Shown here one piece after another: positions 35,338 to 54,906 of a DNA stretch of 64,000 nt. Location of the stretch: contig PLCA01000016.1 of assembly GCA_003134685.1 (NCBI GenBank), forward strand, positions 237,988 to 301,987. The letters run 5' to 3'. The number at the start of each line of letters is the position of its first letter. The stretch's first letter is position 1. The translations under genes were made by a program, and so were the position numbers. This DNA comes from Gemmatimonadota bacterium. Lineage in GTDB: Bacteria; Gemmatimonadota; Gemmatimonadetes; Gemmatimonadales; Gemmatimonadaceae. The notes under the pieces were generated by a model. It did no database searches, was not told the DNA's origin, and saw only the letters and a program-made list of their open reading frames with translations.

Positions 35338-35460
35338 GAGTGTATCCACGGAACCGGGTACAGCTCAATGGGGTCAATCACTATCTAGGCACTCATCAAT
35401 CCTGAAATCGGGCTTACCGTGAGCATCTTACTGGCGTCAATAATGCAGCCTCTTTCGCAT

Positions 35461-36864: not shown

Positions 36865-36931
36865 TAAGGGCCTGGCTTCTGCTTCGCCGCATTGGTTGTG
36901 CGATGCGTGCAACTAAACTAGGGCGTTAGGT
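36865..36931 (+). repeat. attC 11, 3' half only
   Basis: The right half of the family motif is present (TGCTTCGCCGCATTGGTTGTG, then GTGCAACTAAACTAGGGC) with R' GTTAGGT at 36925-36931. No RYYYAAC is found in the expected place to the left, so the site is a remnant. It still marks the left edge of cassette 12. Confidence 0.78.
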
Positions 36932-37000
36932 GGCGCATGAGAGCGAAACGCGCTCAAGTCGGAACATGAACACTACGGCCCTTATGGTTCCCTAGAAGTG

Positions 37001-37234: not shown

Positions 37235-37320
37235 CGAACGTTGCAGCAGACAAGCGCTTTTCGGATGCGGCTTCGCCGCAATGGTTGTAGTGTGCTTGCA
37301 GCTGAACTAGGGCGTTAGAC
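37229..37320 (+). repeat. attC 12 (92 bp)
   Basis: R'' is ACCTAAC at 37229-37235 and R' is GTTAGAC at 37314-37320. It is of the standard sequence family, with the GCGGC-TTC-GCCGC hairpin. Confidence 0.95.
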
Positions 37321-37344
37321 GGCGATTCGGAGTTGGGTGCAGAT

Positions 37345-38064
37345 ATGAAAACCCGCTTACTAAAGTTTGTTGCGCCACTCGTCGCTCTCAGTACATCGGC
37401 CTGCGGGCATCATCACGTCAATCCGCCTGCAGAACCATATTGGGACGGAGCGTTTTGGATTGAACCGACTAGCAGCTGCACTGACTCCTCACCGAGATTC
37501 CTTCCAAAGTTCAGAGCTTCTGACAATCTTCCCGGTATCAGCGAAATTCATCATGCCGATCAGCTCCAAGCGTGGCTTGCTCGCCACGTCCCAGGCGGGT
37601 GGGCATACGGGCCCTCGTTCAACAGCAATCATGCGACGCTTTGGCTTCGGGACCCGACGCAGAAACATGCCGCCATGGCCGCACTCGATTCGTTAGCTCC
37701 GCCGAATCAACTCTTTACCGCTACACACGCTGACTCGATCGTTGCGCTGCCGGTTCGGTGGGACTACGCGGAGCTTTACGACTGGCTGGAAGTCCTCAAG
37801 ACTGGGCACATAATAGCTACGGGAATGAACATGTGGGGAATCGATGCGGCCAATGACCGAATTGTTTTCGGTATTGAGACGAGAGAGACGCTTGATGCAA
37901 TGGTGAAGTGGCTTATTGACAAAGGAATCCCCTGTCGTCTTGTCGTAGTCGAAGTAAGTGGAAAGATCTACCTCGCTGGGCGACCTACGTTCTCGCTTCG
38001 CCGTCTAACGAACGTTGCAGCAGACAAGCACTTTTCGGATGCGGCTTCGCCGCAATGGTGGTAG
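37345..38064 (+). CDS. Cassette 13: lipoprotein whose C-terminus is encoded by attC
   Basis: From ATG 37345 the 239-residue product has a lipobox in VALSTSACGHH. A domain with WDYAELYDWLEVLKTGHIIATG and FGIETRETLDAMVKWLIDKG follows. The last 19 residues (from LTNVAADKHF to PQWW) are read from the attC itself, because this gene enters attC in a frame that has no stop in R''. The frame ends at a TAG at 38062-38064. No enzyme motif is identified. The tail may be an artefact of cassette evolution rather than a functional part. Confidence 0.75.
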   Translation: MKTRLLKFVAPLVALSTSACGHHHVNPPAEPYWDGAFWIEPTSSCTDSSPRFLPKFRASDNLPGISEIHHADQLQAWLARHVPGGWAYGPSFNSNHATLWLRDPTQKHAAMAALDSLAPPNQLFTATHADSIVALPVRWDYAELYDWLEVLKTGHIIATGMNMWGIDAANDRIVFGIETRETLDAMVKWLIDKGIPCRLVVVEVSGKIYLAGRPTFSLRRLTNVAADKHFSDAASPQWW

Positions 38065-38094
38065 TGTGCTTGCAGCTGAACTAAGGCGTTAGAC
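38003..38094 (+). repeat. attC 13 (92 bp)
   Basis: R'' is GTCTAAC at 38003-38009 and R' is GTTAGAC at 38088-38094. The standard family. It is the last complete attC in the window. Confidence 0.95.
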
Positions 38095-38240
38095 GGACGA
38101 TCATCTATCTAGTATTATTCGCTCACGAGTGACGATCGCCTTGTCCGCGACGGGTGTCTCGATGAGCCCGCTGAGATTTCGGAATCGACTGGCGGCGCCG
38201 GCTCCCAATCAAGGGCGATTGTTCCCAGCGGCGCCGGAGC

Positions 38241-41200
38241 CTATGGCCCACAGGTCGGCGGCTGCGCTCCGACAGCCTTCGCCAACGGAGTCCTGCGCGC
38301 GGCGGAAAGAGCGGCGTTCAATGCGGTGAGATCCGCGCCGTTGATTGCGCGCCACGCAGCGATCGACTTCCCAAGATCGTTGCACGCCGACTTGTAGGCC
38401 GCGAGCATCGCCGCCGTCGGATCGACGTCGCCGTTGTCGAAGGTGCCGAGCTGGTTCAGCAATCGGCTGATCAACTGCACGAGGGTCGGACGCGCGTTGG
38501 CGTTGCCTCCGAAGAAGCCGCCACCACCAAAACCACCACCCGTCGGGGCACGGCCACCCAGCGTGTCGAGCTTCGCGATGTATTCCCGGATCGTCTTCGC
38601 GGCGCCGCTCGTGGAATCGCTTGCCGTTATCGCTCGAAGCTGCGCTCGCGTTGTGTCGGTCTGCCGGAATGCGTCCCACGCGAGCCGCTCCAACGCGTTC
38701 AGCTTCCTGATGAGCGCGTCCTCGGCCTTCAGCGCCGCGAGGTTCGCCGGCGACCGCGGATCGTTGGCGACAGTCACTTTCTCGTCGTGCGATTTTCCGT
38801 TGACGCTGAGACGCACGGTGTATGTACCTGGCGGCACGACCGCACCTTCGGGCGAGGCCGGCGTCTCGGCCGGGTTAGCGTTGATCTCGAATGAGTGAGT
38901 GAACGCCGGCGGCGCGTCGTAGCGCAAATCCCAATTCACGCGATGCATACCGGCGTCTGTGGGCAGCGGTTGCTCGACTTTCACCCAGAAATTCGGATGC
39001 GGGGGACGCGCTGCTTCGGGCACTGGCGTGATGGGATCGCTGGAATAATGCCGCACCACCGCGCCGGCGGAATCGAGCACGTCGAGTGTCACTCTGCCGC
39101 TTGCCCTCGAGCCAAGCCAGTAGTAGATGATGGCGCCGTCGGGGGGATTCAGCGCGTGCGGCACTTCGGGAGGGAACGGTGTGTCCGCGCCGACGTTGCG
39201 GCGCACACGCACTGCGCCGTCCGGCTTGAAGAGGTGCACGTCCTCGTTCGCGGTGGTGTTGGTGATCTGCCGCAACACCGCGTAGTCGTCGAGCACAAAA
39301 ATCCCGCGTCCGTACGTGCCCACAATGAGATCGTTGCCCCTGAACGCGATGTCGCGGAACGAAGTCGTCGGCAGGTTGAGCATCAGCGATTGCCACGAGT
39401 CGCCATCGTCGAACGAGACGTACATCGCGCTCTCGGTGCCGAGGAAGAGGAGGCCGGGTCGCTTCGGATCTTCGCGCAAGATTCGCGCGTAGCTGCCGTT
39501 GGACTCACCAGTGGCGAGGCCGTTAGTAATCAACGTCCACGTCTTGCCGTAATCGCGCGTGCGATAGACGTACGGTTTGTAATCGGCCGAACCCCGCCGG
39601 TCAGCCGTGATGTACGCCTCAGCGGCGGTCGTGTGCGACGGTTCCACCGAGTGGATTTGTCCGGGGAGCGAGAAGCCCGACACATCATTCCATGTCCGGC
39701 CGTTGTCGCGCGTGAGCTTCACCAGCCCCGTGTTGATCCCTACCCAGATCGTGCCGCGTGCGACTGTAGATGGACCGATCGACATGATCGTGCCCGGGAT
39801 CGGCTCTCCGGGTTTGGGCGTGGCGGTGTCCGGGGGAATCGCGAAGCTCGCCGGATAGCCAAGGTTCGGGCTGATCTTCGTCCAATGCATGCCTCCGTCC
39901 GTCGTCGACATGAGATATTGAAAGCCGGCGAGGAGTCTGTGTTCATCCCAAGGGTCGAACAGCAGCGGCGCGTCGGTGTTCACACGCAGCCGGAGCGATT
40001 GGTCCTGCGCCGGGCTTACGTTCACCCACTGCTCGCTCGGAAAGGAAATCCTGATGACGCCGTTGCCGGTGGCGTACACGGCGTTCGCGTCGAGCGGGTC
40101 GGGCAGAATGGTGCCCCACTCCCAGCCGTTCACGGGATTCCAGTCGAGCGGTGTCACCGCTCCCAGGTTGCCGCGCGCGCGTGTGCGCACGGCACCGGCG
40201 TCCTGCTGCGACGCGTAGATCCAATACGGGAACGAGTTGTCCGTGGAGACGTGATAGACCTGCTCGGTGGACTGGTTGTACCACGAGCTCCAGGTGGCGC
40301 CGCCATCTAGCGAGACGATTGCGCCCTGGTCGTAGCCGAGGATAATGCGCTTGCCGTTGGTGGGATCGATCCACCCCTGCTGCGGATCGTCGCCGCCCGG
40401 CGCGCCCCTGAAACCGGTGAAGGTATTGCCGCCGTCGCGCGAGATGTACGCCGCGGTATTGAAGACGTAGACGACGTCCGGATTCTTCGGATCGACGTAG
40501 ACGCCGCAGTTGTAGCCGCCCTGTCCATTGCGGATGCGCGTGTCGGTCGCGTCCATCTGCTTCCAGGTGGCACCGCCGTCATCCGAACGGAAGAACCCGA
40601 TGTTGGTGGTGAAGTAGACGCGCTGCGCGTTGGTGCCGTTCGCGACGGCGATCGACGTGCGACCCGGGATGCGCGGCAACGCACCACCAGTGAGCTCCTT
40701 CCAGGTGACGCCGCCGTCGAGCGATTTATATATGGAAGTGCCGGTCGGACCTTGGGAGCGCTGCGCACCAGCGGGGCCTCCGCCGCCACCCAGTCCACCG
40801 GGCGGGACAACGGGTAGACCGCTCGGCGCGGGCGCCGAGTAGTGGCGCACCGTGGTCGCGAACACGACGTCCGGCCTGTCGAACGCGATCGCCAGCTTCT
40901 GGATGCCGGTCGAGTCGTCCACGAACAAAGTGCGCGTCCAGGTCGTGCCGCCGTTTGTGCTGCGATACACGCCACGCGAATCGTCCTTGGTGTGAACGTC
41001 TCCCTGCGCCGCGATGAGCACTACGTTCGCGTCGCGCGGGTCCACTACGATGCTTGGAATCTGCTTCGTCTTCTCGAGGCCGATGTGCGTCCACGTCGCG
41101 CCGGCATCGGTACTCTTGTACGTGCCGTTGCCTTCGGCAATTCCACCACCCGTGATCAAGTCACCGGTGCCCACGTAGATCGTGTTGCCGTTTGACGGCG

Positions 41201-41492
41201 CCGCTTCTAGCGCGCCAATCACCTCGGCGTCTCTGACGCCGTCGAAGACCGGCCACCAGGTGGCGCCGGCGTCGGTTGTCTTCCACACACCGCCGGCGGG
41301 CAGGCCGATGTAGAACGTTCCCGGCTCGCCGATCACGCCGGAGACGGCGGAGATGCGGCCGCCGCGGAACGGACCGACGTTGCGCCAGACAAGCCCGGAA
41401 AGCAACTCAGGTTTGATGGGTGTCGCCGCGACGGAGATGGCGGCAACGGTGATGGCGGCGACGGTGAAGGAGATAGCGTGTTTCGTGTTCAT
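38241..41492 (-). CDS. Sortilin/VPS10-like secreted BNR-repeat protein
   Basis: This 1083-residue protein has a signal peptide and many BNR/Asp-box repeats of the S-x-D-x-G-x-T-W type, such as KTTDAGATW, STNGGTTW, RSDDGGATW and SLDGGATW. The fold is expected to be a ten-bladed beta-propeller of the VPS10/sortilin type, typical of large secreted proteins in Gemmatimonadota and Acidobacteria that are annotated as glycosyl hydrolase-like. The C-terminal 300 residues form Ig-like and helical domains (NPPDGAIIYYWLGS, later LNALERLAWDAFRQT). The enzyme activity is unproven. It lies opposite to the integron orientation and between attC 13 and the interrupted attC at 41727. Confidence 0.88.
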   Translation of the reverse strand: MNTKHAISFTVAAITVAAISVAATPIKPELLSGLVWRNVGPFRGGRISAVSGVIGEPGTFYIGLPAGGVWKTTDAGATWWPVFDGVRDAEVIGALEAAPSNGNTIYVGTGDLITGGGIAEGNGTYKSTDAGATWTHIGLEKTKQIPSIVVDPRDANVVLIAAQGDVHTKDDSRGVYRSTNGGTTWTRTLFVDDSTGIQKLAIAFDRPDVVFATTVRHYSAPAPSGLPVVPPGGLGGGGGPAGAQRSQGPTGTSIYKSLDGGVTWKELTGGALPRIPGRTSIAVANGTNAQRVYFTTNIGFFRSDDGGATWKQMDATDTRIRNGQGGYNCGVYVDPKNPDVVYVFNTAAYISRDGGNTFTGFRGAPGGDDPQQGWIDPTNGKRIILGYDQGAIVSLDGGATWSSWYNQSTEQVYHVSTDNSFPYWIYASQQDAGAVRTRARGNLGAVTPLDWNPVNGWEWGTILPDPLDANAVYATGNGVIRISFPSEQWVNVSPAQDQSLRLRVNTDAPLLFDPWDEHRLLAGFQYLMSTTDGGMHWTKISPNLGYPASFAIPPDTATPKPGEPIPGTIMSIGPSTVARGTIWVGINTGLVKLTRDNGRTWNDVSGFSLPGQIHSVEPSHTTAAEAYITADRRGSADYKPYVYRTRDYGKTWTLITNGLATGESNGSYARILREDPKRPGLLFLGTESAMYVSFDDGDSWQSLMLNLPTTSFRDIAFRGNDLIVGTYGRGIFVLDDYAVLRQITNTTANEDVHLFKPDGAVRVRRNVGADTPFPPEVPHALNPPDGAIIYYWLGSRASGRVTLDVLDSAGAVVRHYSSDPITPVPEAARPPHPNFWVKVEQPLPTDAGMHRVNWDLRYDAPPAFTHSFEINANPAETPASPEGAVVPPGTYTVRLSVNGKSHDEKVTVANDPRSPANLAALKAEDALIRKLNALERLAWDAFRQTDTTRAQLRAITASDSTSGAAKTIREYIAKLDTLGGRAPTGGGFGGGGFFGGNANARPTLVQLISRLLNQLGTFDNGDVDPTAAMLAAYKSACNDLGKSIAAWRAINGADLTALNAALSAARRTPLAKAVGAQPPTCGP

Positions 41493-41580
41493 CGCGGTGC
41501 TGGATGGAAGGAAGTGGGTGGACTAATATGGCCGGAGCGATTGGCGTTGGTTATGTCCTCCCAGAATCGTCTCGGCTCAG

Positions 41581-41748
41581 GCCGCTGCTGCCATCCTTGC
41601 CCTTCTCAGGGAATTCGAGGAAGATCTGGAGGCCACTCAACAGGCTAGAGAACAGCTACGCGAAGGGCTAAGCGAAGCGTCTTCCTCCGCTGTTCGTACT
41701 GTCACGTCCCTATCGCCACGTTTGCGGTCTAACGAACGTTGCAGCTGA
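41581..41748 (+). pseudogene. 5'-truncated cassette ORF fragment (coiled-coil)
   Basis: In the frame from 41581 an open stretch encodes a short amphipathic helix (LLREFEEDLEATQQAREQL) and continues into the attC remnant to a TGA at 41746-41748. No ATG, GTG or TTG start is in frame; the frame opens after a TAA at 41524. It may be the 3' end of a cassette gene cut off when the sortilin-like gene arrived. This is weakly supported. Confidence 0.35.
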
Positions 41749-41752
41749 CAAG
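41727..41752 (+). repeat. attC 14, 5' half only, cut by a second IS-like copy
   Basis: R'' is GTCTAAC at 41727-41733, followed by the family left arm to GACAAG at 41752. The sequence then changes to the IS-like element at the same attC base as in attC 10. The flanking bases left of R'' are unrelated to those at attC 10. Confidence 0.88.
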
Positions 41753-41858
41753 GGTACTTGCACCACTTTTGTTGACACTTCCACCTAACCAGCATGGAGT
41801 GTCACCTATGCCACGATCGGGTCCACGCGCAGTGCGGAAGTACAGCGACGAGTTCAAG
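41753..41858 (+). mobile_element. IS3-like element fragment, copy B
   Basis: This stretch is nearly identical to the left end of copy A: from attC GACAAG onward it differs by three bases over about 106. It includes the inverted repeat GACACTTCCA...TGGAGTGTC and an OrfA start at 41808 (MPRSGPRAVRKYSDEFK). Similarity stops at 41858, where an unrelated gene begins. The right end is absent. 41493-41887 otherwise contains nothing that I can assign. Confidence 0.8.
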
Positions 41859-41887
41859 AACAGAACCGGAGAATCTGCATGCTCGAC

Positions 41888-42469
41888 CTATGCCTTCTTC
41901 AAAGGCCCGAGGACCTTGTATGTAGTGAGGGTGACGCCGGCCGGCGTAGTTTGTGTATTCACGAACTCGAATGTCTGCGCTGGAGTTCTGTCAGCGAACA
42001 CGCGCTTCCCCGTCCCCAACAGGACCGGATAGACGATCGCGATGAGTTCATCGGCAAGCCCATGCTCGAGCAGCGTCGATGTAAGCGACGAGCTGCCTGA
42101 GAGAATCAGGTTCGGGCCGTCTTGCGACTTGATGCGGCGAAGGGCCGCGACGACGCTCGGTCCAATGGCTTCGAACGGGCCCCACACAAGACTATCCGGA
42201 CGGTGGGTAGCGACATACTTCGTGGCGGCGTTGATTCGGGCGCCGATCGGACTGCTCGGCGCCGTTGGCCAGAAGCCCGACCACAAATCGTAGGTGCGAC
42301 GGCCGAGCACCAGGTCAAAGCGCTCGCCGTGAATCGCCATAACCATCTCTCGGCCAGCGGGCGTTCGATACGACGCGGTCCAGTCGCCGTAGGGGAAGTC
42401 GTTGTCGTCGCGAGAGTTCTGCATCACGCCGTCCAGCGACATGTGTTCGATAATCTTGAGCGTTCTCAT
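41888..42469 (-). CDS. RibD C-terminal-domain (dihydrofolate-reductase-like) protein
   Basis: The product is 193 residues of the RibD_C fold used by bacterial reductases of the dihydrofolate-reductase-like family. Signs are MRTLKIIEHMSLDGVMQ at the start, the VLGRRTYDLWSGFW motif, and LILSGSSSLTSTLLEHGLADEL, followed by YPVLLGTGKRVF. No deaminase domain is present. The start at 42469 overlaps the TGA of the SRPBCC gene by ATGA. Substrate and cofactor are unknown. It forms an operon with an ArsR-type regulator and SRPBCC protein, an arrangement seen for stress or xenobiotic genes. Confidence 0.88.
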   Translation of the reverse strand: MRTLKIIEHMSLDGVMQNSRDDNDFPYGDWTASYRTPAGREMVMAIHGERFDLVLGRRTYDLWSGFWPTAPSSPIGARINAATKYVATHRPDSLVWGPFEAIGPSVVAALRRIKSQDGPNLILSGSSSLTSTLLEHGLADELIAIVYPVLLGTGKRVFADRTPAQTFEFVNTQTTPAGVTLTTYKVLGPLKKA

Positions 42470-43290
42470 TTGAGTCCCAGCTCCGTCGGCATCGGGAAGC
42501 GTTCCTGGAGCCACGCTTGCCACACCGGTGTCTCACGGGCGACGGTTGCGGCCGACTGATCGCCGTAAAGGTAGAAGTTCATCGCAACCATGCTCTGGCC
42601 ACCGGGATAGGTGACGGCGCCAAGGGCGGCTACGCCTGGCCCCGGCTTGTCGAGCCTCAGCAGGGCGTCGTACGGACTCTCGGTGACATACTCCACCACG
42701 CCGCTGAGCGGTGGGACACCCGCGGGCGTCGTCCAACGCCGCCCGACGCTCAAGCCTTTCACTCCCAACGCCGAGGTCAGCGTTTCCCAGGCCTCCGCGT
42801 CCGTACTCGCGACGGGAGTCATCACCTGCATGATCGCGGAGCGTTGGCTGCGGAAGTGCGTGAGATAGATCCGAAGGGTGCGTAGAAAAGCAGGCCATGC
42901 GGATGCGGTGGCTTCGAGCTGGTTGTCCCAATCGTCCGTGCTGGCGAAAAGACTATGGACAATGCGGACGATGCAGATACCTCCTCCGCGCGCTTCAACG
43001 CTCCACTCGTTCGCGATGGGTGGCGAGCCAGGCATCCAGCCATCGGACTCATTGGCGAACATCCGGGGTGAATCCCAGGCAGTGACCACGGAGCGTGCCT
43101 CCATGCCCGGACCGAAGCTCACTGTCAGTGCGACGGGCTTCCCGTCGCGCTCCTCGAACTCAACCGGCACGAACCAGGACGAAATACCCGGCCCGGTGGC
43201 GATGGCCTGCCAGACTTCCTCCGGCGTGCCGGGGACCTCGACTTCGACCTGGACGGAACGGCGTCCGTTGGCTTCTTGCTTCACGCTCAT
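42466..43290 (-). CDS. SRPBCC/AHSA1-domain protein, duplicated layout
   Basis: This 274-residue protein starts VQVEVEVPGTPEEVWQAIAT, the AHSA1-type START-fold entry, followed by a second region (ITHFRSQRS, then AWETLTSALGVKG) that looks like a related half of about 110 residues. The fold binds hydrophobic ligands. Its gene is bracketed by overlaps: 4 bp with the ArsR-type gene upstream and 4 bp with the reductase gene downstream. Activity is unknown. Confidence 0.85.
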   Translation of the reverse strand: MSVKQEANGRRSVQVEVEVPGTPEEVWQAIATGPGISSWFVPVEFEERDGKPVALTVSFGPGMEARSVVTAWDSPRMFANESDGWMPGSPPIANEWSVEARGGGICIVRIVHSLFASTDDWDNQLEATASAWPAFLRTLRIYLTHFRSQRSAIMQVMTPVASTDAEAWETLTSALGVKGLSVGRRWTTPAGVPPLSGVVEYVTESPYDALLRLDKPGPGVAALGAVTYPGGQSMVAMNFYLYGDQSAATVARETPVWQAWLQERFPMPTELGLK

Positions 43291-43889
43291 GATGGCTCCT
43301 TGGGCTCGGATTTTTTCGGGAGGGGATGCGCCACGACCACAAGTCGATGCGCGCGACCGCCGGGGGCGGATTCATCGTGATATTTCGAAACGAGTTTCGC
43401 GATTGCATCGGTGAGTTCGCGGCTGAACGCCGCCCGGTCCGTCGGCGACCGGAAGCGAACCTCGGTATCCACTGCCAGTGTCGCCAGGCGTTTGCCCGCC
43501 TCGTTCGCACGACGAACGAGATCGCCCACCTCGCGGACAACCCGTGCGCCCAAGGCGATGAGGTAGCCCGCGGACAGCCGATCGACTTCCCGATTCGGAT
43601 CAAGGGCGACCGGACCCAAGGCGCTCGGCGAAACGACATAGGAAGCAGCCGTCGCGACGAGCAGCCGCTCCGTCAGCCCGCCCCACTTGCGTTCCTGGGC
43701 CAGCCGCACCAGCCCGTGCGCCTCCAGCTCGTGCAGATGGTAGTTGACCTTCTGCCGAGCCAAGCCGACCCGCGTGGCCAACGTCGCCGCCGAGGCGGGC
43801 GCGGCCAGTTCGGAGAGGAGTCGGCTTCGGATCGGCTCCAAGGCCGCCGTCGCCGCCGCCGGATCATCGATGACTTGGATGTCGAGCAT
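43287..43889 (-). CDS. ArsR/HTH-type transcriptional regulator
   Basis: The 200-residue product has an N-terminal winged helix (EPIRSRLLSELAAPASAATL then RVGLARQKVNYHLHELEAHG), as in ArsR-like regulators of SRPBCC genes, and a C-terminal region of 110 residues (LSAGYLIALGARVVREVGDL) with no clear metal site. Translation from ATG 43889 gives this protein; the longer frame to 44264 runs through fossil attC DNA. A palindrome overlaps the promoter upstream (43904-43925), suggesting autoregulation. It is first in the three-gene operon. Confidence 0.88.
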   Translation of the reverse strand: MLDIQVIDDPAAATAALEPIRSRLLSELAAPASAATLATRVGLARQKVNYHLHELEAHGLVRLAQERKWGGLTERLLVATAASYVVSPSALGPVALDPNREVDRLSAGYLIALGARVVREVGDLVRRANEAGKRLATLAVDTEVRFRSPTDRAAFSRELTDAIAKLVSKYHDESAPGGRAHRLVVVAHPLPKKSEPKEPS

Positions 43890-43903
43890 GAGGAGATGGT
43901 ACC

Positions 43904-43925
43904 CTTGACAACTTTTATTGTCAAG
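43904..43925. promoter_or_regulatory. Palindromic operator/promoter of the ArsR operon
   Basis: The sequence CTTGACAA-CTTTTA-TTGTCAAG is a perfect 8-bp inverted repeat with a 6-base spacer, 14 bp upstream of the ArsR start on the minus strand. TTGACA forms a -35-like element on either strand. Its position supports autoregulation by the ArsR-type protein, but this is an inference. Confidence 0.65.
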
Positions 43926-43966
43926 CGTGATCCAAAGTTTTTTTGCCGAAATTCGCGGAGTCCGCA

Positions 43967-44041
43967 AGGAGCAAGCACTTTTCGGATGCGACTTCGCCGC
44001 AATGGTTGTAGCGTGCTTGCAGCTGAACTTTGGCGTTATGC
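43967..44041 (+). repeat. Fossil attC 15, degenerate 3' part
   Basis: The centre AAGCACTTTTCGGATGCG(A)CTTCGCCGCAATGG, then GCGTGCTTGCAGCTGAAC, is the family sequence. R' is GTTATGC at 44035-44041, with a T where the consensus has a purine, and the 5' arm and R'' are unrecognisable. Confidence 0.75.
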
Positions 44042-44063
44042 CGCGGTGGATATCATAGAAGTG

Positions 44064-44669: not shown

Positions 44670-44823
44670 ATTGACCAACGAGATTGCCCGACCTCCGCTA
44701 CTCGCGCAAAGCCTCGAGGCCTCGGCGATTAGTCATTGCCTTTAGCTTGACTGAGACTGTTGTGGCTCAACAGATTCAGCGCACAAGACTCTGAAGACCC
44801 GTCGAGAGGCTCCGTCGCCACCT

Positions 44824-45783
44824 ATGAGTTGTATCCGCGTTGCACCGGCCCTCGGTGCCTGGCTGGCAATCTCCCTCGCGGCATGCGGGGACGGTTCTAC
44901 TTCACCGCTGAACGATCCCCGTGGAGTCATGCTGGTGGTGAGCGGGACTGGTTCCGCGTCCGAGATCTACGCCATGCGTCTCGATGGATCCGCTCGGCTG
45001 CAGCTCACCCAAAATGCGATCCTGGATGGTGATCCGGATTGGTCACCCGACGGTCAGCAGATCGTGTTCATCAGTGCGGTAGACAGCGAGCCAGGTGCGC
45101 CAGCTCGCCGGCGCGATGTCTATCTGATGAGCGCCGACGGCTCCGGAAAGCATCGATTGTTTCAGGGCGCCCCCGGTGCCGGGGCTGCACATCCCCGCTG
45201 GTCGCCGGACGGAAGCCGCATTTCCTTCGACAGCTTCGACGCAGCACTGGGTGGGTTCCAGCCTTACGTGATGAACAGCGACGGTTCCAACGTGAAGATC
45301 GTGCGGACAATGCCGGGAGAAAATTTCGGTCTCGCGTGGTCGCCCGACGGCACGCGCTTTCTCTTTCTTACGAACCGATCACCGAGGTTGCTGTGGACTT
45401 TGCACGTCATGCCAACGGACGGTTCCAGCGACCAGCAGATCACAGACGACGCCGCCTGCCCGTCGAATCTCGGGAGGGCTGCCCAGTGGTCGCCCGATGG
45501 TTCCACCATCGCGTTTTCGTGCGCAACCAACCTGGGATCGTGGATCACTACGATGCAGGCCGATGGGACGGGCGTGGCTATCGTGACCCTCCCCGCGACA
45601 GAAGCTTTCGATCCGGTGTGGTCACCAAGTGGCGCGCAAATCGCCTTCGCCGGCAATCCCGGTTCAGTTGGCGGTAATCCTGTCTCGCAGGTGTTCGTGA
45701 TCAACGCCGCGGGAGGGGCGGTGTCGCAGATAACGAATGGCACCGCACGTAATGTCGTGACCGCCTGGCGATCGGGGCACTAG
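44824..45783 (+). CDS. PD40/TolB-like beta-propeller lipoprotein
   Basis: The 319-residue product starts with a lipoprotein signal (LAISLAACGDGST) and contains at least five WD40-like PD40 repeats of the form W-S-P-D-G-x-x-I/L: DWSPDGQQIVF, RWSPDGSRISF, AWSPDGTRFLF, QWSPDGSTIAF and VWSPSGAQIAF. It would form a periplasmic propeller akin to TolB's C-terminal domain. It lacks a TolB N-terminal domain, so it is more likely a secreted scaffold. Its stop overlaps the start of the frame that leads to the rhamnosidase. Confidence 0.88.
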   Translation: MSCIRVAPALGAWLAISLAACGDGSTSPLNDPRGVMLVVSGTGSASEIYAMRLDGSARLQLTQNAILDGDPDWSPDGQQIVFISAVDSEPGAPARRRDVYLMSADGSGKHRLFQGAPGAGAAHPRWSPDGSRISFDSFDAALGGFQPYVMNSDGSNVKIVRTMPGENFGLAWSPDGTRFLFLTNRSPRLLWTLHVMPTDGSSDQQITDDAACPSNLGRAAQWSPDGSTIAFSCATNLGSWITTMQADGTGVAIVTLPATEAFDPVWSPSGAQIAFAGNPGSVGGNPVSQVFVINAAGGAVSQITNGTARNVVTAWRSGH

Positions 45784-45924
45784 CCCATAGGCACTCTTCG
45801 TCTGTGCTTCGCCTCGATCCTCGCGGCGTTCGCGGCCGTCGTCGCGTTCTCCGCACCGCTCGACGCGCAGGAGACGCGCGTATTCGACGGGGCGTCGCCA
45901 GCGAGCTGGATCGCGCCTCCCGGT

Positions 45925-48189
45925 GTGCCGGGGGACACCTTCACTGTGTTCCACGCGCGACGAACCTTCGACCTGTCGTCGGTCCCCGCGCGATTCGTGG
46001 TGCACGTGTCCGCGGATAATCGATACCGACTCTACGTCAACGGCGTGCAGGTGTCCTCCGGTCCACAGCGGTCGGATGTCATGCACTGGCGCTACGAGAC
46101 GCTCGACCTCGCGCCCCATCTGCGCGCGGGGCGTAACGTGATCGCGGCCCTCGTGTGGAACTGGGGCGCTTCGCGTCCGGTGGCGCAGCACAGCAATCGC
46201 ACCGGATTCCTGCTCCAGGGTAACGGCCAGGTCGAGGCAGCGCTGGTGAACACAGGCACAGGATGGAAGGTGCTGCGCGATCCGGCGTACTCGCCCATCG
46301 TCATCACCACCGCTACGCTGGGCGACTATTACGCCGCGGCTCCCGGCGATTCGGTCGACGGCTCGCGCTATCCATGGGGATGGGAGCGCGCGGACTACTC
46401 GGATGATTCGTGGAGCGATGGTGCCAGTGCCATCGTCGGTCGCGTGCAGCTGCGCGCGATGGCGCCCGGCGGCTATGGCGAAGTGTCGGGATGGCAGCTC
46501 GAGGCGCGGTCGATACCCTCAATGGAGGAAACAGAGCAACGGCTCGCGCGCGTCCGTCGCACGACCGGTGTCGAAACCGACGGCGCGTTTCTACGAGGAG
46601 CCGGTGATCTGGTGATCCCCGCACGGACGACGGCGGTGCTCCTGCTCGATCAATCGCATACGACGAATGCGTATCCGGTGCTCGAGACGAGCGGAGGCGC
46701 CGGCAGCATGGTACGCCTCACGTACGCCGAGGCACTGATCGACGCGAAGGGGCAGAAAGGAAATCGGAACGAGATCGAAGGGCGGACGGTGCGCGGGCTG
46801 CGCGACGTCTTCCTTCCCGACGGGGGCGCGCGGCGCCGCTTCACGACGTTGTACTGGCGCTCCTTCCGCTACATCCAGATGGACGTCACGACGGCAGATG
46901 CGCCACTGCGAGTGCACGATCTGCACGGGATCTTTACTGCGTACCCGTTCGCGGAGCGCGGTCGCTTCGCGAGCGATCTTCCGTGGCTTGCCGAAATGTG
47001 GGGCATGAACTGGAACGGCGCGCGAATCGGTGCGTTTGAGACGTACATGGACACTCCGTATTGGGAGCAGCTCCAGTACGTCGGCGATACGCGCGTGCAG
47101 GGGCTCATCTCGCTTTACGTCGCCGGCGACGATCGCCTCCTGCGTCAGGCGATCGAGCATTTCGACTTCTCTCGCATCCCGGAGGGACTCACCGCGAGTC
47201 GCTATCCCTCGGCGTTGACGCAGATCATTCCACCCTTCTCGCTGATCTACGTCGCGATGGTGCACGACTATTTCATGCACCGCGACGACCCCGCGTTCGT
47301 GCGTGCGCGACTCGCCGGCGTGCGCGGGATCCTTGACTGGTTCGGCCGCCACGTGGATGCCACCGGCATGCTGGGCCCGATGCCGTACTGGAACTACGTC
47401 GATTGGACGAAACCGTGGGATCGGGGCGTTCCCCCCGGCGCCGACGATGGGCACTCGACGACGATCAGCCTGCTGTACGCATACGCGTTGCAGCGCGCGG
47501 CGGAGCTCGAGGAGGGAGTCGGGATGCGCGGTGCGGCGGCAGACTATCGTGCGCGCGCTGAAGCGATGCGTGCCGCGGTACGCGCGCGTGCCTGGGACTC
47601 GGCGCGGGGATTGTTTCGCGACGCGCCGGATATCAGTGCGTACAGCCAGCAGACCAACGTGCTCGCCGTCCTAGCGAATGCGGTGTCCAGCGCTGAGCAG
47701 CGAGACCTGATGGAACGCGTCCTCGCCGACACGACGCTCACACAGGCATCCTATTACTTCAGCTTCTACGTACTGGAAGCGCTACGAAAGGCGGGGCTCA
47801 GCGACCGCTACATCGAACAGCTTGCGCCGTGGCAGGCGATGTTGAAGCTCGGTCTTACGTCGGCTCCGGAAAATCCGGAGCCCACGCGCTCCGACACGCA
47901 TGCGTGGGCCGCGCACCCGAACTATGGCCTGCTCGCGACTGTGCTCGGCGTGCGTCCTTCGAGTCCGGGCTTCCGCACTGTGCGCATCGCGCCGGCGCTC
48001 GGTCCTTTACTTCGCGCCGAGGGACGCGTGCCACATCCGTCCGGCGACATCGACGTCCGACTGGTGCGCGAGGGCAAGCGCGGACTGCGCGCCGAGATCA
48101 CGCTGCCGCGCGGGCTGTCAGGCGTGTTCGAATGGCAGGGGCAACGCCGGCCGTTGCGCGAGGGGCGGCAGATCATTCGGTTCGAATAA
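45925..48189 (+). CDS. GH78-type alpha-L-rhamnosidase, start uncertain
   Basis: This secreted glycoside hydrolase of family 78 type removes terminal L-rhamnose. The N-terminal carbohydrate-binding region contains WRSFRYIQMDVT, typical of the family, and the (alpha/alpha)6 catalytic domain shows a TPYWEQLQYVGDTRVQ segment, where the Glu near residue 381 fits the acid/base. The C-terminal beta-sandwich ends with GVFEWQGQRR. The first GTG in frame is 45925, but the frame upstream encodes a clear signal peptide (LCFASILAAFAAVVAFSA) back to 45784 with no ATG, GTG or TTG. The gene may use a non-standard start or have lost it. Confidence 0.87.
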   Translation: MPGDTFTVFHARRTFDLSSVPARFVVHVSADNRYRLYVNGVQVSSGPQRSDVMHWRYETLDLAPHLRAGRNVIAALVWNWGASRPVAQHSNRTGFLLQGNGQVEAALVNTGTGWKVLRDPAYSPIVITTATLGDYYAAAPGDSVDGSRYPWGWERADYSDDSWSDGASAIVGRVQLRAMAPGGYGEVSGWQLEARSIPSMEETEQRLARVRRTTGVETDGAFLRGAGDLVIPARTTAVLLLDQSHTTNAYPVLETSGGAGSMVRLTYAEALIDAKGQKGNRNEIEGRTVRGLRDVFLPDGGARRRFTTLYWRSFRYIQMDVTTADAPLRVHDLHGIFTAYPFAERGRFASDLPWLAEMWGMNWNGARIGAFETYMDTPYWEQLQYVGDTRVQGLISLYVAGDDRLLRQAIEHFDFSRIPEGLTASRYPSALTQIIPPFSLIYVAMVHDYFMHRDDPAFVRARLAGVRGILDWFGRHVDATGMLGPMPYWNYVDWTKPWDRGVPPGADDGHSTTISLLYAYALQRAAELEEGVGMRGAAADYRARAEAMRAAVRARAWDSARGLFRDAPDISAYSQQTNVLAVLANAVSSAEQRDLMERVLADTTLTQASYYFSFYVLEALRKAGLSDRYIEQLAPWQAMLKLGLTSAPENPEPTRSDTHAWAAHPNYGLLATVLGVRPSSPGFRTVRIAPALGPLLRAEGRVPHPSGDIDVRLVREGKRGLRAEITLPRGLSGVFEWQGQRRPLREGRQIIRFE

Positions 48190-48200
48190 GCTGACATGAC
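48151..48200. repeat. 50-bp direct repeat, copy 1 (end of the rhamnosidase gene)
   Basis: This contains the last 13 codons of the rhamnosidase and 11 bases past its stop codon. It matches 50205-50254 at 47 of 50 positions. The two copies flank the 2-kb segment that carries the carboxypeptidase-regulatory-domain gene. Confidence 0.85.
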
Positions 48201-48390
48201 GGCATCTAGAGCGCACGTCCGATAAGCGTTGAGTCTGAATCATGCATTCTGAGATAGTTAGATAACATTGTTAGCGCGTCTTTGGTGAAAGTGTTGACGG
48301 TTGGTTCAGATTTTATCTCCAAATCGATCTGCCGACACTCGTTTGTCAAGAATCAAAGTGGACAACCGAAAACCAGGGGTGATCACTCGA

Positions 48391-50133
48391 ATGAATATTG
48401 CTCCCCTGTTGAGACTCAGCCTAGCCTCTGTGGTCCTGACACCCACTGTATTTTGCCAAGAGGTCAGCGGCACGGCCCAGATATCGGAATCACATGCAAG
48501 CTCACCCGGAACAACCATTGTCCTTGTTAGCCCGAGCGGAGTAATCATCGCAGGGACATTGAGCAGGCTGGATGGAGGATATGTTCTTCGCGCGCCGAGC
48601 CCGGGACGATACAGAGTTCGCGCGCGGCGCTTGGGGTTCGCGCCGGATTCGTCGGACGTACTGACTTTCAGCGTCGACGGTGCGCTCCACTTCGACCCGG
48701 TGCTAAGGCCACTCACCACATCGCTTCAGGCTGTCTCCGTTGAGGGAGCCAGCCGGTGCGTCGTAAGCCCAGGCTCTGGCGCTCAGGCATTTCGCTTATG
48801 GGAGGCGGCACAAAACGCATTGTCAGCGACCATCGCCGCATCGACTGGGAAACAATTTGCGTTCCGGCTTGGGCGATTCCAGCGGGAGATCGATCCTGCG
48901 ACCGGACGAATCATTCATGGGACCGAATGGGAGATGCGTGCCCTGAGCTCTGAGCCCTACTACAGCATCTCGCCCGATTCTCTTGCCACGACGGGCTTTG
49001 CGAGGACGGAAGGAGATTCGGCGGTGTACTTCGCCCCGGATGCTCGGACGCTTACTTCCGCGGTCTTTGCGCAGACACACTGCATGCGCGCCATTCAGGA
49101 TAGAGCAAAGCCTGAACAGATCGGCCTCGGATTTGAGCCTGTCGCACGAACGGGGCTCGTCGATGTAGCGGGAGTGCTCTGGCTCGATCGGGCTTCCGGC
49201 GAATTGCGAAATCTTGAATACCGATACGAGCTGGGCGTGGGCAATCGTGCGCAGGAAGGATCTTCCGCAACCGAGTCAGCCACCGGTAGAATCGAATATC
49301 GTCGGCTGGACAACGGCGGCTGGATCGTCAATCGATGGCTGATTCGCGTCCCGGTTCAAAAGGATGAGCGCAACAGCACTCTGTCTTCCAAAGGAGCGGG
49401 CGGTAACCTGACAGTTCGCTCAACTCGCGTTGCTCGTACGACAGCTTTTTGGGAGGTCGGGGGTGACGTGAGGGCTGTTCTCGATCCGAGCGATCCGGCA
49501 TTCAGCCAGCAGAGTGAGGTCGGTGTCCTGCGCGGAAGCATTGTTACCGGCCCCAATCATGTTGGCGTGCCGAACGTTGAGATCAACGTCGCGTCAACTG
49601 GCCCGAGTGCCCAATCACGGAGAACCATAACCGGCAGCGATGGGCTTTTCTCTTTTGACAGTCTTCCCGAGGGTGACTACCGTCTTACCGTGAGCGCCGC
49701 TTCATTCGACACATTGAACACTCTCGTACAACCAGTACCGCTTCGAATAGGTGCGAGCACTCTTCAAACAGTGACGATTACTATTCCATCGGCAGAGGAG
49801 GGCCGCGCTGCTCTTTGCTCGGCGACCAACTCGTCTACCACAATCGTTCACGGGCTTGTAACTGACAGCGCGACAGGGCAACACATTACCGGAGCACGCG
49901 TGGAAGCCTACTGGCTGTCGGGAACGACACGGAACATTGGAGGATTGACCACGAGTGCCCACCAACGGGTAACTCTTACCGATAGCAGCGGCAAATACGT
50001 CTTCTGCGGAATGGAGTCGACGACGCGTTTATTGCTGAGTGCCTCACTCGGGTCACGAAAAAGTCGGCGTATGCCGTCGATGACAATTGGCCAAGGGGAT
50101 ATGCAGTTGGCAAATCTTCAGATTTCACGATAG
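48391..50133 (+). CDS. Secreted carboxypeptidase-regulatory-domain protein
   Basis: A signal peptide (LLRLSLASVVLTPTVFCQ) precedes a 580-residue protein. At least two CarboxypepD_reg-like domains are visible, including GIVTGPNHVGVPNVEI-type entry (GSIVTGPNHVGVPNVEINV) followed by TGSDGLFSFDSLPEGDYRLTV, and an N-terminal copy with VSPSGVIIAGTLSRLDGGYVL then PGRYRVRARRLGF. Such proteins occur as ligand-binding or TonB-associated modules. The ATG at 48391 follows an upstream open frame from 48301. The gene lies between two copies of a 50-bp repeat and shows a slightly lower GC than its neighbours. Confidence 0.8.
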   Translation: MNIAPLLRLSLASVVLTPTVFCQEVSGTAQISESHASSPGTTIVLVSPSGVIIAGTLSRLDGGYVLRAPSPGRYRVRARRLGFAPDSSDVLTFSVDGALHFDPVLRPLTTSLQAVSVEGASRCVVSPGSGAQAFRLWEAAQNALSATIAASTGKQFAFRLGRFQREIDPATGRIIHGTEWEMRALSSEPYYSISPDSLATTGFARTEGDSAVYFAPDARTLTSAVFAQTHCMRAIQDRAKPEQIGLGFEPVARTGLVDVAGVLWLDRASGELRNLEYRYELGVGNRAQEGSSATESATGRIEYRRLDNGGWIVNRWLIRVPVQKDERNSTLSSKGAGGNLTVRSTRVARTTAFWEVGGDVRAVLDPSDPAFSQQSEVGVLRGSIVTGPNHVGVPNVEINVASTGPSAQSRRTITGSDGLFSFDSLPEGDYRLTVSAASFDTLNTLVQPVPLRIGASTLQTVTITIPSAEEGRAALCSATNSSTTIVHGLVTDSATGQHITGARVEAYWLSGTTRNIGGLTTSAHQRVTLTDSSGKYVFCGMESTTRLLLSASLGSRKSRRMPSMTIGQGDMQLANLQISR

Positions 50134-50204
50134 GGGATCTCCGTTCACCAAGCATAGAGTTGGCGTTAGCAACTGTATTTAAAGCCAAGCGGTGGTGAGT
50201 GCGG

Positions 50205-50254
50205 CCATTGCGCGAGGGGCGGCAGATCATTCGGTTCGAATAAGCCGACGTGAC
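50205..50254. repeat. 50-bp direct repeat, copy 2 (no gene attached)
   Basis: The 47-of-50 match to the rhamnosidase 3' end at 48151. Here it is a stranded copy in non-coding DNA, with the final codons of the rhamnosidase but no upstream gene body. Confidence 0.85.
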
Positions 50255-50329
50255 CGGTACCAAGTACTACCGAATTCTGCCTCGTCCTAACCGGGATAGA
50301 TTCCCAACAGCCTAACAAAGGATCAGTCG

Positions 50330-50752
50330 ATGTTATTCTTTCGCTCTTCTTCCCCCCGACAGCTGAGCCTCGGGCTTGGGGCACTCCGTGTCGCCGTTGC
50401 AACGATCTTCATCAAACACGGGGCGCAGAAGTTGTTCGTCTTTGGTTTCTCCGGCGTTACGGGCGCGTTCACGCAGATGGGCGTCCCGCTTCCGGGCGTC
50501 ACGGGACCGTTCATCGCGCTGCTCGAGTTCTTCGGCGGCATTGCTCTCGTAATAGGTCTCCTGACCCGTCTGATCGCGCTCGGCTTCGTGTGCGACATGC
50601 TCGGTGCCATCCTCTTAGTACAACTCAAGAGCGGGTTTTCGCATTTTGAGCTCGAATTCCTGCTCCTCGGGTCGAGCCTCGCTCTTGTTCTTACGGGAGC
50701 CGGCGAGTTCTCCGTCGACGCGCTGCTTGGTCGTCGTGACGCGAAAGGTTGA
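50330..50752 (+). CDS. DoxX-family membrane protein
   Basis: The 140-residue protein has four hydrophobic segments (LGALRVAVATIFIKHGAQKL, GPFIALLEFFGGIALVIGLL, LGFVCDMLGAILLVQL, FLLLGSSLALVLTGAGEFS), matching the DoxX fold, including the HGAQKLF motif after helix 1 and the ALLEFFGGIALVIGL motif. Members are linked to thiosulfate:quinone oxidoreductase or redox homeostasis. It precedes a cytochrome c gene by 6 bp and probably shares its transcript. Confidence 0.9.
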   Translation: MLFFRSSSPRQLSLGLGALRVAVATIFIKHGAQKLFVFGFSGVTGAFTQMGVPLPGVTGPFIALLEFFGGIALVIGLLTRLIALGFVCDMLGAILLVQLKSGFSHFELEFLLLGSSLALVLTGAGEFSVDALLGRRDAKG

Positions 50753-50758
50753 CTTCGT

Positions 50759-51808
50759 GTGAGCCCAAGCAAGGAAGAAAGCATCCTCCGACAGCTTGAC
50801 GGAGCGATTCGTCAGCCACGTGCCGGCAAGTTGCTGACCGCGCCGTTACTGCCGATAATCATCGCTGTCTTTACGATCGCTCTTGCCGTCTTCCAAGAGC
50901 CCTCCGATGTACCGCCCTGGGCTTTCCCCGGCAGCCCAAAGGATTCCGCGGGTGTCGATAGCACGCGGTTGCATCACATCCCCAACAGCGAGGCGCGGTT
51001 CACGCTACGTCAAGCCATCGATCGGTTCGCGCCACCCGACTGGCATCCGAGCGGACACCCGCCGATGCCGGATGTCGTTGCGCATGGCCGGAGAGCGGAT
51101 CTCTTTGCGTGCGCCTACTCTCATTTGCCGAACGGAACAGGAAGACCCGAGAACGCGGCGCTCGCCGGCTTGCCCGAGGGCTACATCATCGCACAGCTGG
51201 CGGATTTCCGCAGTTCTGCCCGCAAAAATCCGTTGCCCGGTTGGATTCCCGGCAACAGCATGCACGCCGTTGCCATGAGTGCCACGGAAGCAGACGTCGC
51301 ATCCGCCGCGCGCTACTTCTCGCGGCTGCGATTTACGCCGCAAGTTCGAGTGATCGAGGCGGCGCGCATTCCTCGCATGCGCGAGGCCGCATTCGTCTAC
51401 GCGCGCATCCCAGGGGCGGGAACCGAGCCGATCGGCAGCCGGATCGTCGAGGGTCCGCCCGATTTCGAACGCCACGAGCTCCGCGACGACGCCATGACCT
51501 ATGTCGCCTACGTACCACCGGGGAGCATCAAGCGTGGCCGGTCCATCGCGACGAAAGGCACCAACGGGCTCGCCACCGCGTGCGTCACGTGTCACGGCAA
51601 AAACCTGGTCGGCACAGGCCTCATTCCTCCGCTCGCCGGCCGCTATCCGACGTACATCGTTCGCCAGCTCATTGCATTCAAGACGGGTGCGAGGTCCACG
51701 CCCGCTTCGCAGCCGATGCAGCCCGTGGTGGCTCGGCTGACGGTTGCGGACATGATCGCGGTAGCCGCGTACGCCGGTTCGCTCGCCCCTGCGCATCACT
51801 CTCGATAG
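50759..51808 (+). CDS. Membrane-anchored cytochrome c, one normal and one broken heme site
   Basis: The 349-residue protein has an N-terminal membrane anchor (LLPIIIAVFTIALAVF), so it is periplasmic. The second domain has an intact c-heme site CVTCHGKNLVG. The first domain keeps the surrounding pattern of a c-type cytochrome (PNGTGRPENAALAGLPEGYI) but its site reads CAYSH, with Ser in the place of the second Cys. The Ser codon TCT is one base from the TGT codon for Cys. Only one covalent c-heme should be attached. It begins with GTG 6 bp after doxX, and precedes the FAD monooxygenase gene. Confidence 0.85.
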   Translation: MSPSKEESILRQLDGAIRQPRAGKLLTAPLLPIIIAVFTIALAVFQEPSDVPPWAFPGSPKDSAGVDSTRLHHIPNSEARFTLRQAIDRFAPPDWHPSGHPPMPDVVAHGRRADLFACAYSHLPNGTGRPENAALAGLPEGYIIAQLADFRSSARKNPLPGWIPGNSMHAVAMSATEADVASAARYFSRLRFTPQVRVIEAARIPRMREAAFVYARIPGAGTEPIGSRIVEGPPDFERHELRDDAMTYVAYVPPGSIKRGRSIATKGTNGLATACVTCHGKNLVGTGLIPPLAGRYPTYIVRQLIAFKTGARSTPASQPMQPVVARLTVADMIAVAAYAGSLAPAHHSR

Positions 51809-51819
51809 CCGCCGCTTCA

Positions 51820-53349
51820 ATGACCGACAAGCTTGTCCTGATCGCGGGCGCGGGACCGACCGGCCTCGTGCTCGCGCTCTGGTTGACGAAGCTCGGAGTC
51901 AGGGTGCGAATCATCGACAAAACGGCGGAACCTGGCACGACGTCCCGCGCGCTCGCCGTGCAGGCACGCACGCTGGAGTTCTATCACCAGATTGGGATCG
52001 ACGACGGAGTCATCGCGGGCGGAGTCAAGATTCAGAACCTGAATTTGTGGGTGAAGGGGCGCCGAGCTGCCCGCGTACCGCTCCAGCGCGCGGGAGAAGG
52101 ACTGACGCCGTACGACTTCGCACTCGTCTTTCCGCAGGACGCTCACGAGCGCTTGCTCATCGAGCGACTGGGTGAGCTGGGCGTTCGGGTGGAGCGGAAA
52201 ACAGAGTTGCTGCGCTTCTCACAGAACGACGCCGGAGTGACGGCGACGCTGCGGAGGCCCGACGCCTCAGAAGAAGTTTGCGAGGCAGCGTATCTCGCGG
52301 GCTGCGACGGCGCGTCGTCAACCGTTCGCGGACAGCTAGGAGTCGGGTTCCCCGGGGGAACCTACACCGGCCTCTTCTACGTCGCGGACATAGAGGCAAC
52401 GGGCGAGCCCGTCGACAACGACCTCCACGTCGACATCGAAGACGCCGACTTCCTGCTGCTCTTCCCGCTCAAGGGAAAGGGACGCGTGCGTCTGGTGGGA
52501 ACGGTCCGCGATCTGCCGGAGAACGATCACGGCAAGCTCGACTTCGAGGACGTGAAGGGCAAAGCCATCGAACACCTCAAGCTCGACATCAAGAAGGTGA
52601 ACTGGTTTTCGACCTATCGCGTGCACCATCGCGTCGCACTCCACTTTCGCGACAGACGCGCCTTCCTGCTCGGCGACGCCGCGCACGTCCACAGTCCGGT
52701 CGGTGGACAAGGAATGAACACCGGGATTGGCGACTCGGTGAACCTGGCGTGGAAGATCGCTGAGGTGCTGAGTGAAGCAGCGCCCGAGAGCCTGCTCGAC
52801 ACGTACGAGCCGGAGCGGATTGGTTTCGCACGACGCCTCGTCGCGACCACCGATCGTGGATTTACGTTCGTCACGAAACGTGGTGGGATCGCCAGTGTGG
52901 TACGCACGCGGATCGTTCCGCTCGTGGTGCCGCTGCTTTTTCGAACAGGAGCAGTGCGTCGCTTGCTGTTCAGGACGGTATCGCAGACCCGGGTTAACTA
53001 TCGCAACAGCGCATTGAGCACGGGCTCGGCGGGGAAAGTCCGCGGCGGGGATCGATTACCCTGGGCCGATCTCGGACCAGGTAAGGACAACTTCGCACCG
53101 CTGACGTCGCTCGCGTGGCAGGTTCATGTCTATGGCGAAGCGAGAAGCGTCCTGGTCGAAGCGTGCGCTGAGCTTCGCCTTCCGCTGCACGTATTCGCGT
53201 GGCAACAGTCAATGCGAGGCGCCGGTTTGCAAAAAGACGCGTTGTACCTGGTGCGACCGGACGGATACATCGCGCTTGCCGAGCCGAGTGCGGACCCGCA
53301 ACGACTGCGTCAGTATTTCACTGAACGCGGCTGGCGCCACGGCAACTGA
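51820..53349 (+). CDS. FAD-dependent aromatic monooxygenase (PheA/TfdB-like)
   Basis: The 509-residue flavoprotein hydroxylates aromatic or polyketide compounds with NAD(P)H. The N-terminal Rossmann motif is LIAGAGPTGLVLALWL, the DG region is LAGCDGASSTVR, and the second FAD motif is LLGDAAHVHSPVGGQGMNTG. The C-terminal 110 residues form a thioredoxin-like domain. The frame is open from 51109, but the ATG at 51820 begins right at the FAD motif (MTDKLVLIAGAG) and is 11 bp past the cytochrome gene. The substrate is unknown. Confidence 0.93.
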   Translation: MTDKLVLIAGAGPTGLVLALWLTKLGVRVRIIDKTAEPGTTSRALAVQARTLEFYHQIGIDDGVIAGGVKIQNLNLWVKGRRAARVPLQRAGEGLTPYDFALVFPQDAHERLLIERLGELGVRVERKTELLRFSQNDAGVTATLRRPDASEEVCEAAYLAGCDGASSTVRGQLGVGFPGGTYTGLFYVADIEATGEPVDNDLHVDIEDADFLLLFPLKGKGRVRLVGTVRDLPENDHGKLDFEDVKGKAIEHLKLDIKKVNWFSTYRVHHRVALHFRDRRAFLLGDAAHVHSPVGGQGMNTGIGDSVNLAWKIAEVLSEAAPESLLDTYEPERIGFARRLVATTDRGFTFVTKRGGIASVVRTRIVPLVVPLLFRTGAVRRLLFRTVSQTRVNYRNSALSTGSAGKVRGGDRLPWADLGPGKDNFAPLTSLAWQVHVYGEARSVLVEACAELRLPLHVFAWQQSMRGAGLQKDALYLVRPDGYIALAEPSADPQRLRQYFTERGWRHGN

Positions 53350-53364
53350 GCTCGTGATGCTCGA

Positions 53365-53763
53365 TTACCTGGAGTCCAGCTCTCGAGTCATCTCGATCAT
53401 CGTCCGTCGGAACCCGGCGCGATCGAACAGGCGCTGCGCCGAGGCGTTCCGCTCCGCCGTCGAGAGTACAACGCGGGGCGCACCTCGGGCCTTGAGCGCC
53501 TCGAGCGTCGCGTCGAGCAGCTTCCGACCGACGCCGTGCTTGCGATGGGCGGGATCGACGACGATGTCGTACAACACGCCCGCGGGTCCGCGCAGCGCCA
53601 TGTAATCGGTCCCTTCCACGCCCGCGTAGGTATAGCCCACCACCTCGCCATCCCGCTCGGCGACAAGGATGATGACGTTCTGCTCATCTAGCTGCGTGCC
53701 GAGAAACGAGCCGTACCCCTTCTCGGTGCCCGGCGTTGCCGCGATGAAGCGCTCCGGGTCCAA
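53365..53763 (-). CDS. GNAT acetyltransferase, start not resolved
   Basis: The 132-residue product from a TTG at 53763 has the GNAT core VLYDIVVDPAHRKHGVGRKLL and motif B NASAQRLFDRAGFR. It lacks the usual first strand and helix. In the same frame upstream, reading toward 53856, the segment LNIRPATPTDITAIGRLGALL supplies the missing N-terminus, and the only near-start is a CTG at 53856 overlapping the TGA of the aldo-keto reductase gene. The protein therefore probably starts there, giving about 163 residues and translational coupling. The substrate is unknown. Confidence 0.83.
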   Translation of the reverse strand: MDPERFIAATPGTEKGYGSFLGTQLDEQNVIILVAERDGEVVGYTYAGVEGTDYMALRGPAGVLYDIVVDPAHRKHGVGRKLLDATLEALKARGAPRVVLSTAERNASAQRLFDRAGFRRTMIEMTRELDSR

Positions 53764-53852
53764 GTCGTGGTGCGTGCGGACGAGGAGCGCGCCGAGTCGG
53801 CCAATGGCCGTGATGTCTGTGGGCGTTGCTGGGCGGATGTTGAGGGCCGCGC

Positions 53853-54872
<1,020 letters not shown>

Positions 54873-54906
54873 CTATAGTGCGACGACCGTGCTGTGTGCG
54901 CGCACG

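Follow-up and report, generated by a model that had tools for sequence, protein, structure and literature searches.

The analysed DNA originates from Gemmatimonadota bacterium (assembly GCA_003134685.1, contig PLCA01000016.1, positions 237,988–301,987 of the forward strand). This stretch of 64,000 nt is called the window, and positions follow its numbering unless a contig is named; the source genome is designated G000. The window contains an alpha-L-rhamnosidase-like gene whose 3′ end occurs twice, as a 53-nt direct repeat with 50 identical positions, a longest run of identity of 38 nt, and a start-to-start distance of 2054 nt (Table 1). The left copy comprises the final 42 nt of the rhamnosidase ORF, the stop codon of which ends at 48189, and the next 11 nt. 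A preliminary description of this DNA had reported a 50-bp repeat matching at 47 of 50 positions, which is real and is contained in the 53-nt one. The enclosed segment was found to carry, as had been described, a single gene for a carboxypeptidase-regulatory-like protein (P0001). To the right of the segment, the DoxX, cytochrome c, and FAD-monooxygenase genes were recognized using Pfam.

Table 1. Coordinates of the features at the rhamnosidase locus (window numbering).
Feature	Position	Strand	Evidence
Alpha-L-rhamnosidase-like gene, start codon not settled, intact to the stop inside the left repeat copy	45826..48189	+	PF17389 E 1.3e-20, PF17390 E 1.1e-07; 95% identical G002 orthologue
Left 53-nt repeat copy	48148..48200	+	Single in G002
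Inserted segment, 2001 nt	48201..50201	.	Absent from G002 and G004
P0001, sole gene of the segment, 580 aa	48391..50133	+	Three CarboxypepD_reg stretches
Right 53-nt repeat copy, relic of the rhamnosidase 3′ end beside the old right flank	50202..50254	+	50202–51815 matches G002 at 91%
DoxX-family gene, which originally followed the rhamnosidase gene on the right and does so in G002	50330..50752	+	PF07681 E 2.2e-20; synteny

The repeat boundaries are sharp. Outside the edges, similarity fell to the random level, with 2351 and 528 of 5000 random stretches being as good on the right and all 5000 on the left. The full repeat was matched at only two places in the G000 genome, with four further weak matches of 16–24 nt. 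The three differences between the copies speak against an assembly join, as does the agreement of each outer flank with the respective side of the single-copy site in the sister genome G002.

The G+C content of the segment is 56.2% versus 66.2% for the rhamnosidase gene and 62.6% for the downstream DNA. The GC3 value of P0001 is 0.585, and just 18 of the 599 long ORFs of G000 have values as low or lower. The N-terminus of P0001, judged by eye, resembles a signal peptide, and the only Pfam domains found at E ≤ 0.01 were of the CarboxypepD_reg type. The AlphaFold model (mean pLDDT 75.9, pTM 0.69, 25-sequence alignment) is beta-rich and multi-domain. The 50 Foldseek rows listed for this model were mostly sandwich-domain proteins with TM ≤ 0.16 over the query, and the sequence gave no match to solved structures. 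P0001 is thus predicted to be a secreted multi-domain beta protein, and no narrower function is claimed.

Relatives of P0001 at E ≤ 0.001 were present in all 179 family genomes. The nearest homologue, from G059, is 40% identical (179 family genomes, and 395 phylum genomes with the best three candidates of each scored), and among the 395 phylum genomes, considered in the same manner, only G059 and G060 passed 1e-90, the source genome aside. A close donor was recovered neither by DNA in 288 order genomes (best candidates per genome scored) nor by protein, where nothing above 40% identity was found in the 395 phylum genomes (best three candidates per genome). The scan of the genome contigs with P0001 yielded 23 pattern matches and zero relatives. 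Flanking repeats as a habit of the P0001 family were rejected, none of 29 other loci of the family having a strong one (best: 37 bits, 62 nt at 71%, locus L035). A phage-carried origin was also rejected, as positions 48100–50300 had no match in phage records (distant mode); P0001 received no PHROG assignment, and no exact 20-mer of the rhamnosidase gene end was found in viral contigs.

The rhamnosidases of G002 and G004 are 95% and 86% identical, respectively, to that of G000. In G002, the counterparts of the window stretches 44742–48209 and 50202–51815 adjoin and share the repeat as their overlap; the two flanks, with 94% and 91–92% identity to G000, thus meet over one 53-nt copy. G004 also has a single gene end and no segment; its right flank is alike for only 16 nt and then diverges, and the genes from DoxX to FAD-monooxygenase are missing beyond this point. 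G004 therefore backs the absence of the segment, yet it is a weaker picture of the site than G002. In G016, the rhamnosidase gene is present with a different end. The orthologue check covered 17 loci including that of G000, with G229 (partial matches) left out. The 3′-end repeat occurred downstream in 0 of the 16 other orthologues, with no more than about 1.3 kb of sequence beyond the gene in two of them; a second rhamnosidase with its end at the position of the right copy, which would have contradicted the preliminary description, was thus not seen in relatives.

Repeat position 47 is A in both copies and G in G002. Compared with G002, the left copy differs at two positions and the right one at three, and the copies differ mutually at 3 of 53; between G000 and G002, 145 of 2361 positions of the rhamnosidase CDS and 3 of 75 intergenic positions (50255–50329) are different. 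The shared A and a copy divergence of 3/53 against 145/2361 in the CDS would place the duplication in the G000 lineage, and these counts, although small, fit an origin around or after the split from G002. The preliminary description had suggested insertion with recombination. The insertion is upheld by the segment-free site of G002, which was searched for and found; a part played by recombination is conjectural, and no recombinase belonging to the segment was found. Excision by homologous recombination, which had also been proposed, is possible in principle given 38 identical nt, and copies able to pair could permit loss of the segment in this way. For the single-copy relatives, the better reading is that the segment was never there, and one gain in the G000 lineage is the simplest reading. 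Taken together, the locus very probably represents a lineage-specific insertion of a single gene with a 53-nt target duplication, by which the host gene was kept whole.

The stretch around the locus is variable, with several single-gene differences. Positions 44696–44741 (46 nt) correspond in G002 to 2.9 kb that include a protein-kinase gene (849 aa; L041 798–3680) and no flanking repeat. The FAD-monooxygenase gene occupies 51816–53377, where G002 instead has a sugar-transporter gene and others (L041 8704–11662), with edges without repeats. An aldo/keto reductase gene (53848–54902) is absent at that place in G004, again with no flanking repeat. On the left, positions 28162–44044 contain an array of at least nine repeated sites (CTAACG...GGGCGTTAG) between small ORFs. 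These sites, which we take to be attC-like, make the array look like a cassette array without an integrase, the contig having no PF00589 match. A copy of the array site at 85–88% was also located upstream of the G004 rhamnosidase gene (L042 18222–18277). A link of the segment to the array was rejected, the segment ends not being attC-like, and so was an integron cassette at a secondary site, since alignment of the ends with seven array units gave scores at the random level (521 and 881 of 1000). One GGCGTTAG 8-mer is present at 50162, with no partner CTAACG upstream.

Repeats were surveyed in 1,792,364 bases of G000, half of the genome (at least 28 nt, 88% identity, 0.2–12 kb spacing), the attC-like array being left out. 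The survey comprised contig C4 as a whole, C12 1–440000, C5 1–400000, C1 1–420000, and parts of C10, C16, and C8, some of the parts having been picked for integrase or Ku genes. Eight direct-repeat pairs passed: six are tRNA 3′ ends at five loci (tRNA-Arg ACG, Ser GGA, Lys CTT, Pro GGG, and Lys TTT), the other two are a 34-nt pair on C8 and the present 53-nt repeat, the latter exceeding chance expectation. The seven PF00589 matches in G000 include four inside the tRNA-repeat elements, one after a tRNA-Pro(TGG) gene, and none on C4; the two best matches are probably Xer proteins. The tRNA-Pro(GGG) locus (C10:17976–30883, L102) has three 3′-end copies, and a 1.4-kb piece without a PF00589 match adjoins an 11.4-kb integrase piece. 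This tandem resembles an element beside a CIME (the residue of an ICE or IME that retains att sites and lacks an integrase). A very small integrase element was observed at C16:14266–15800 (L104), with 1.49 kb between two identical 43-nt 3′-end copies of tRNA-Lys(TTT). On C8, 34 nt of a neighbouring gene recur at 99269–99302 (L110 4269–4302), about 2.1 kb from the original; this copy is present in G002 and absent from G008. This is a probable templated insertion; the pair could instead reflect a deletion in G008. In the comparison of G000 with G002, seven gaps of at least 300 nt were counted in an alignment of about 88 kb, and six of the seven are flanked by exact repeats of at most 9 nt.

Several element types do not fit the segment. 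An insertion sequence or transposon was rejected because the single gene has no transposase domain, the segment has no terminal inverted repeats (the score was reached by 1991 of 2000 random pairs), and the duplication is 53 nt long; target duplications of such elements are short, 2–14 bp. A tRNA-targeted integrative element was rejected because the repeat is not part of a tRNA gene, and no tRNA genes were found within the window. An ancestral segment, lost by G002 and G004 through recombination between the repeats, is very unlikely. Loss between direct repeats would yield exactly the single-copy site seen in these relatives; against it, at least two losses would be needed, and copies as old as the G000/G004 split should have more than 3 differences in 53 positions, the rhamnosidase DNA of G004 being 84% identical, unless conversion kept them alike. 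The GC3 of P0001, low for this genome, also speaks against an ancestral segment. It is similarly improbable, to a somewhat lesser degree, that circular DNA bearing the gene together with part of a rhamnosidase 3′ end entered by one homologous crossover of the Campbell type, the donor being a relative with the gene beside its rhamnosidase gene. The homology would be the 53 nt overall, with 38 identical nt today, and circle insertion is proposed for similar flanking repeats of Arabidopsis in the relevant passages of Woodhouse et al. 2010 (PMC2869330). On the other hand, beyond the known ends in G000, G002, and G004, neither the segment (best candidates per genome) nor a further copy of the gene end occurred in any of the 288 genomes, and the nearest P0001 homologue is the one in G059, at 40% identity.

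The main rival is a decayed tyrosine-integrase element, a possible if rather doubtful reading. The repeats would be attL and attR of an integrase recognizing the rhamnosidase 3′ end; the element would have brought its own copy of this end and restored the gene; subsequent loss of the integrase, or reliance on one in trans, would have left a single cargo gene. The layout of an intact gene, an element, and a 3′-end relic is the same as at the five tRNA loci of G000, where four of the seven PF00589 matches sit between the repeats, and the tRNA-Pro locus on C10 offers a repeat-flanked piece without such a match beside an integrase-bearing one. Passages of PMC5704250 and PMC7563491 describe tyrosine-integrase elements as usually having 8–60 bp repeats and using 3′ ends of protein genes, and CIMEs of 1.2–13 kb with cargo. 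The present segment resembles these CIMEs in being a small recombinase-free cargo, flanked by direct repeats where an intact gene has its 3′ end, and lies within the size range given in PMC7563491. It differs in that no related integrase element occupies the site in the searched genomes, that the target is a rare accessory gene, and that the att role of the repeats is putative. No integrase was detected in the segment by Pfam and ORF analysis, and contig C4 contained zero PF00589 matches. The target gene is not conserved, rhamnosidase being found in 18 of 287 order genomes. Of 288 order genomes, only G000 (twice), G002, and G004 yielded DNA of the gene end at three mismatches or fewer; an attP dedicated to it must then derive from this narrow group. 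Integrase elements were found neither beside the 16 other orthologues nor with this gene end, a putative att site, in the 288 genomes. The repeat holds GGTTCGAAT, a T-loop-like 9-mer noticed after the fact, with eight other occurrences in 832,364 bases (its own two copies subtracted); the similarity of the whole repeat to 20 tRNA genes was reached by 643 of 1000 random 53-mers, and mimicry of the tRNA T-loop as the reason for the site was therefore rejected. An inverted core was not clear, 460 of 2000 random stretches being as good, in a test of low power in which the tRNA-site positive controls scored no better.

The explanation we prefer, tentatively and at somewhat short of even confidence, is that foreign DNA with one gene was inserted at the rhamnosidase 3′ end in this lineage and that the 53 bp were duplicated in place by break repair. 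One nick in each strand, at a distance of about 53 nt from each other, would break the chromosome, the single-stranded ends would be filled in, by which the 53 nt would be copied, and a passing gene-sized fragment would be captured between them by end joining. The insertion is proposed to have persisted since the enzyme gene remains intact thanks to the left copy. Ku was found in 17 of 19 genomes of the genus, including G000, where it is encoded at C8:103158–103700 with LigD beside it (LigD_N at C8:103977–104294 within a 944-aa frame). From the 34-nt copy on C8, it seems that short duplications can also arise locally in places other than tRNA sites; against this, the copy is shared with G002, and a deletion in G008 could account for the difference. 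The six of seven gaps between G000 and G002 that have no long repeats show that segments come and go without marks of mobile elements. The same comparison counts against break repair, since the present locus is the only one of the seven with an exact flanking repeat longer than 9 nt and a long duplication is thus not the usual scar here. Also against break repair, six of the eight comparable repeat pairs are integrase-type duplications, and a segment that sits exactly at the 3′ end of a gene and leaves it restored looks like a classic integrase insertion.

A literature search retrieved nothing on this locus. The closest counterpart is the "insertion with long target duplication" of Helicobacter pylori, attributed in passages of PMC1643837, PMC3031569, PMC3154945, and PMC4978471 to Nobusato et al. 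2000, whose comparison of strains 26695 and J99 is reported via PMC1643837 and PMC3031569. As far as these passages describe them, the cases share a gene-sized polymorphism in close relatives, a long direct duplication of sequence present once in the insertion-free relative, and no transposase. There, the cargo is often, though not necessarily, restriction-modification genes, whereas here it is one secreted carboxypeptidase-regulatory-like gene in Gemmatimonadota; unlike the H. pylori cases described, the present duplication restores a protein gene at its 3′ end. In Arabidopsis, according to the corresponding passages of Woodhouse et al. 2010, direct repeats of more than 30 bp flanking transposed genes match the orthologous site of the sister species in 13 of 18 cases. 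The likeness is a single gene between direct repeats that match the sister's site; the differences are that Arabidopsis is a eukaryote and that for several of the cases described there the genome also contains a parent copy, whereas none was found here. A title cited in PMC7719229 concerns the acquisition of heterologous DNA through bacterial non-homologous end joining.

The novelty of the case is modest, and the event itself is well supported. It widens the long-target-duplication pattern to include a cargo that does not consist of restriction-modification genes. In general terms, bacteria with Ku and LigD might take up single genes through patch-like repair of staggered breaks, in which the broken stretch is copied on both sides and gene ends are kept whole. 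In this idea, which we regard as speculative, the locus would be a naturally caught case, and the sister site the picture before it. Most bacterial accessory genes arrive without a recognizable vehicle; this locus retains a 53-nt scar, a segment-free site in the sister, and a genome with both integrase elements and end-joining enzymes, and the combination makes two mechanisms of single-gene gain testable at one site.
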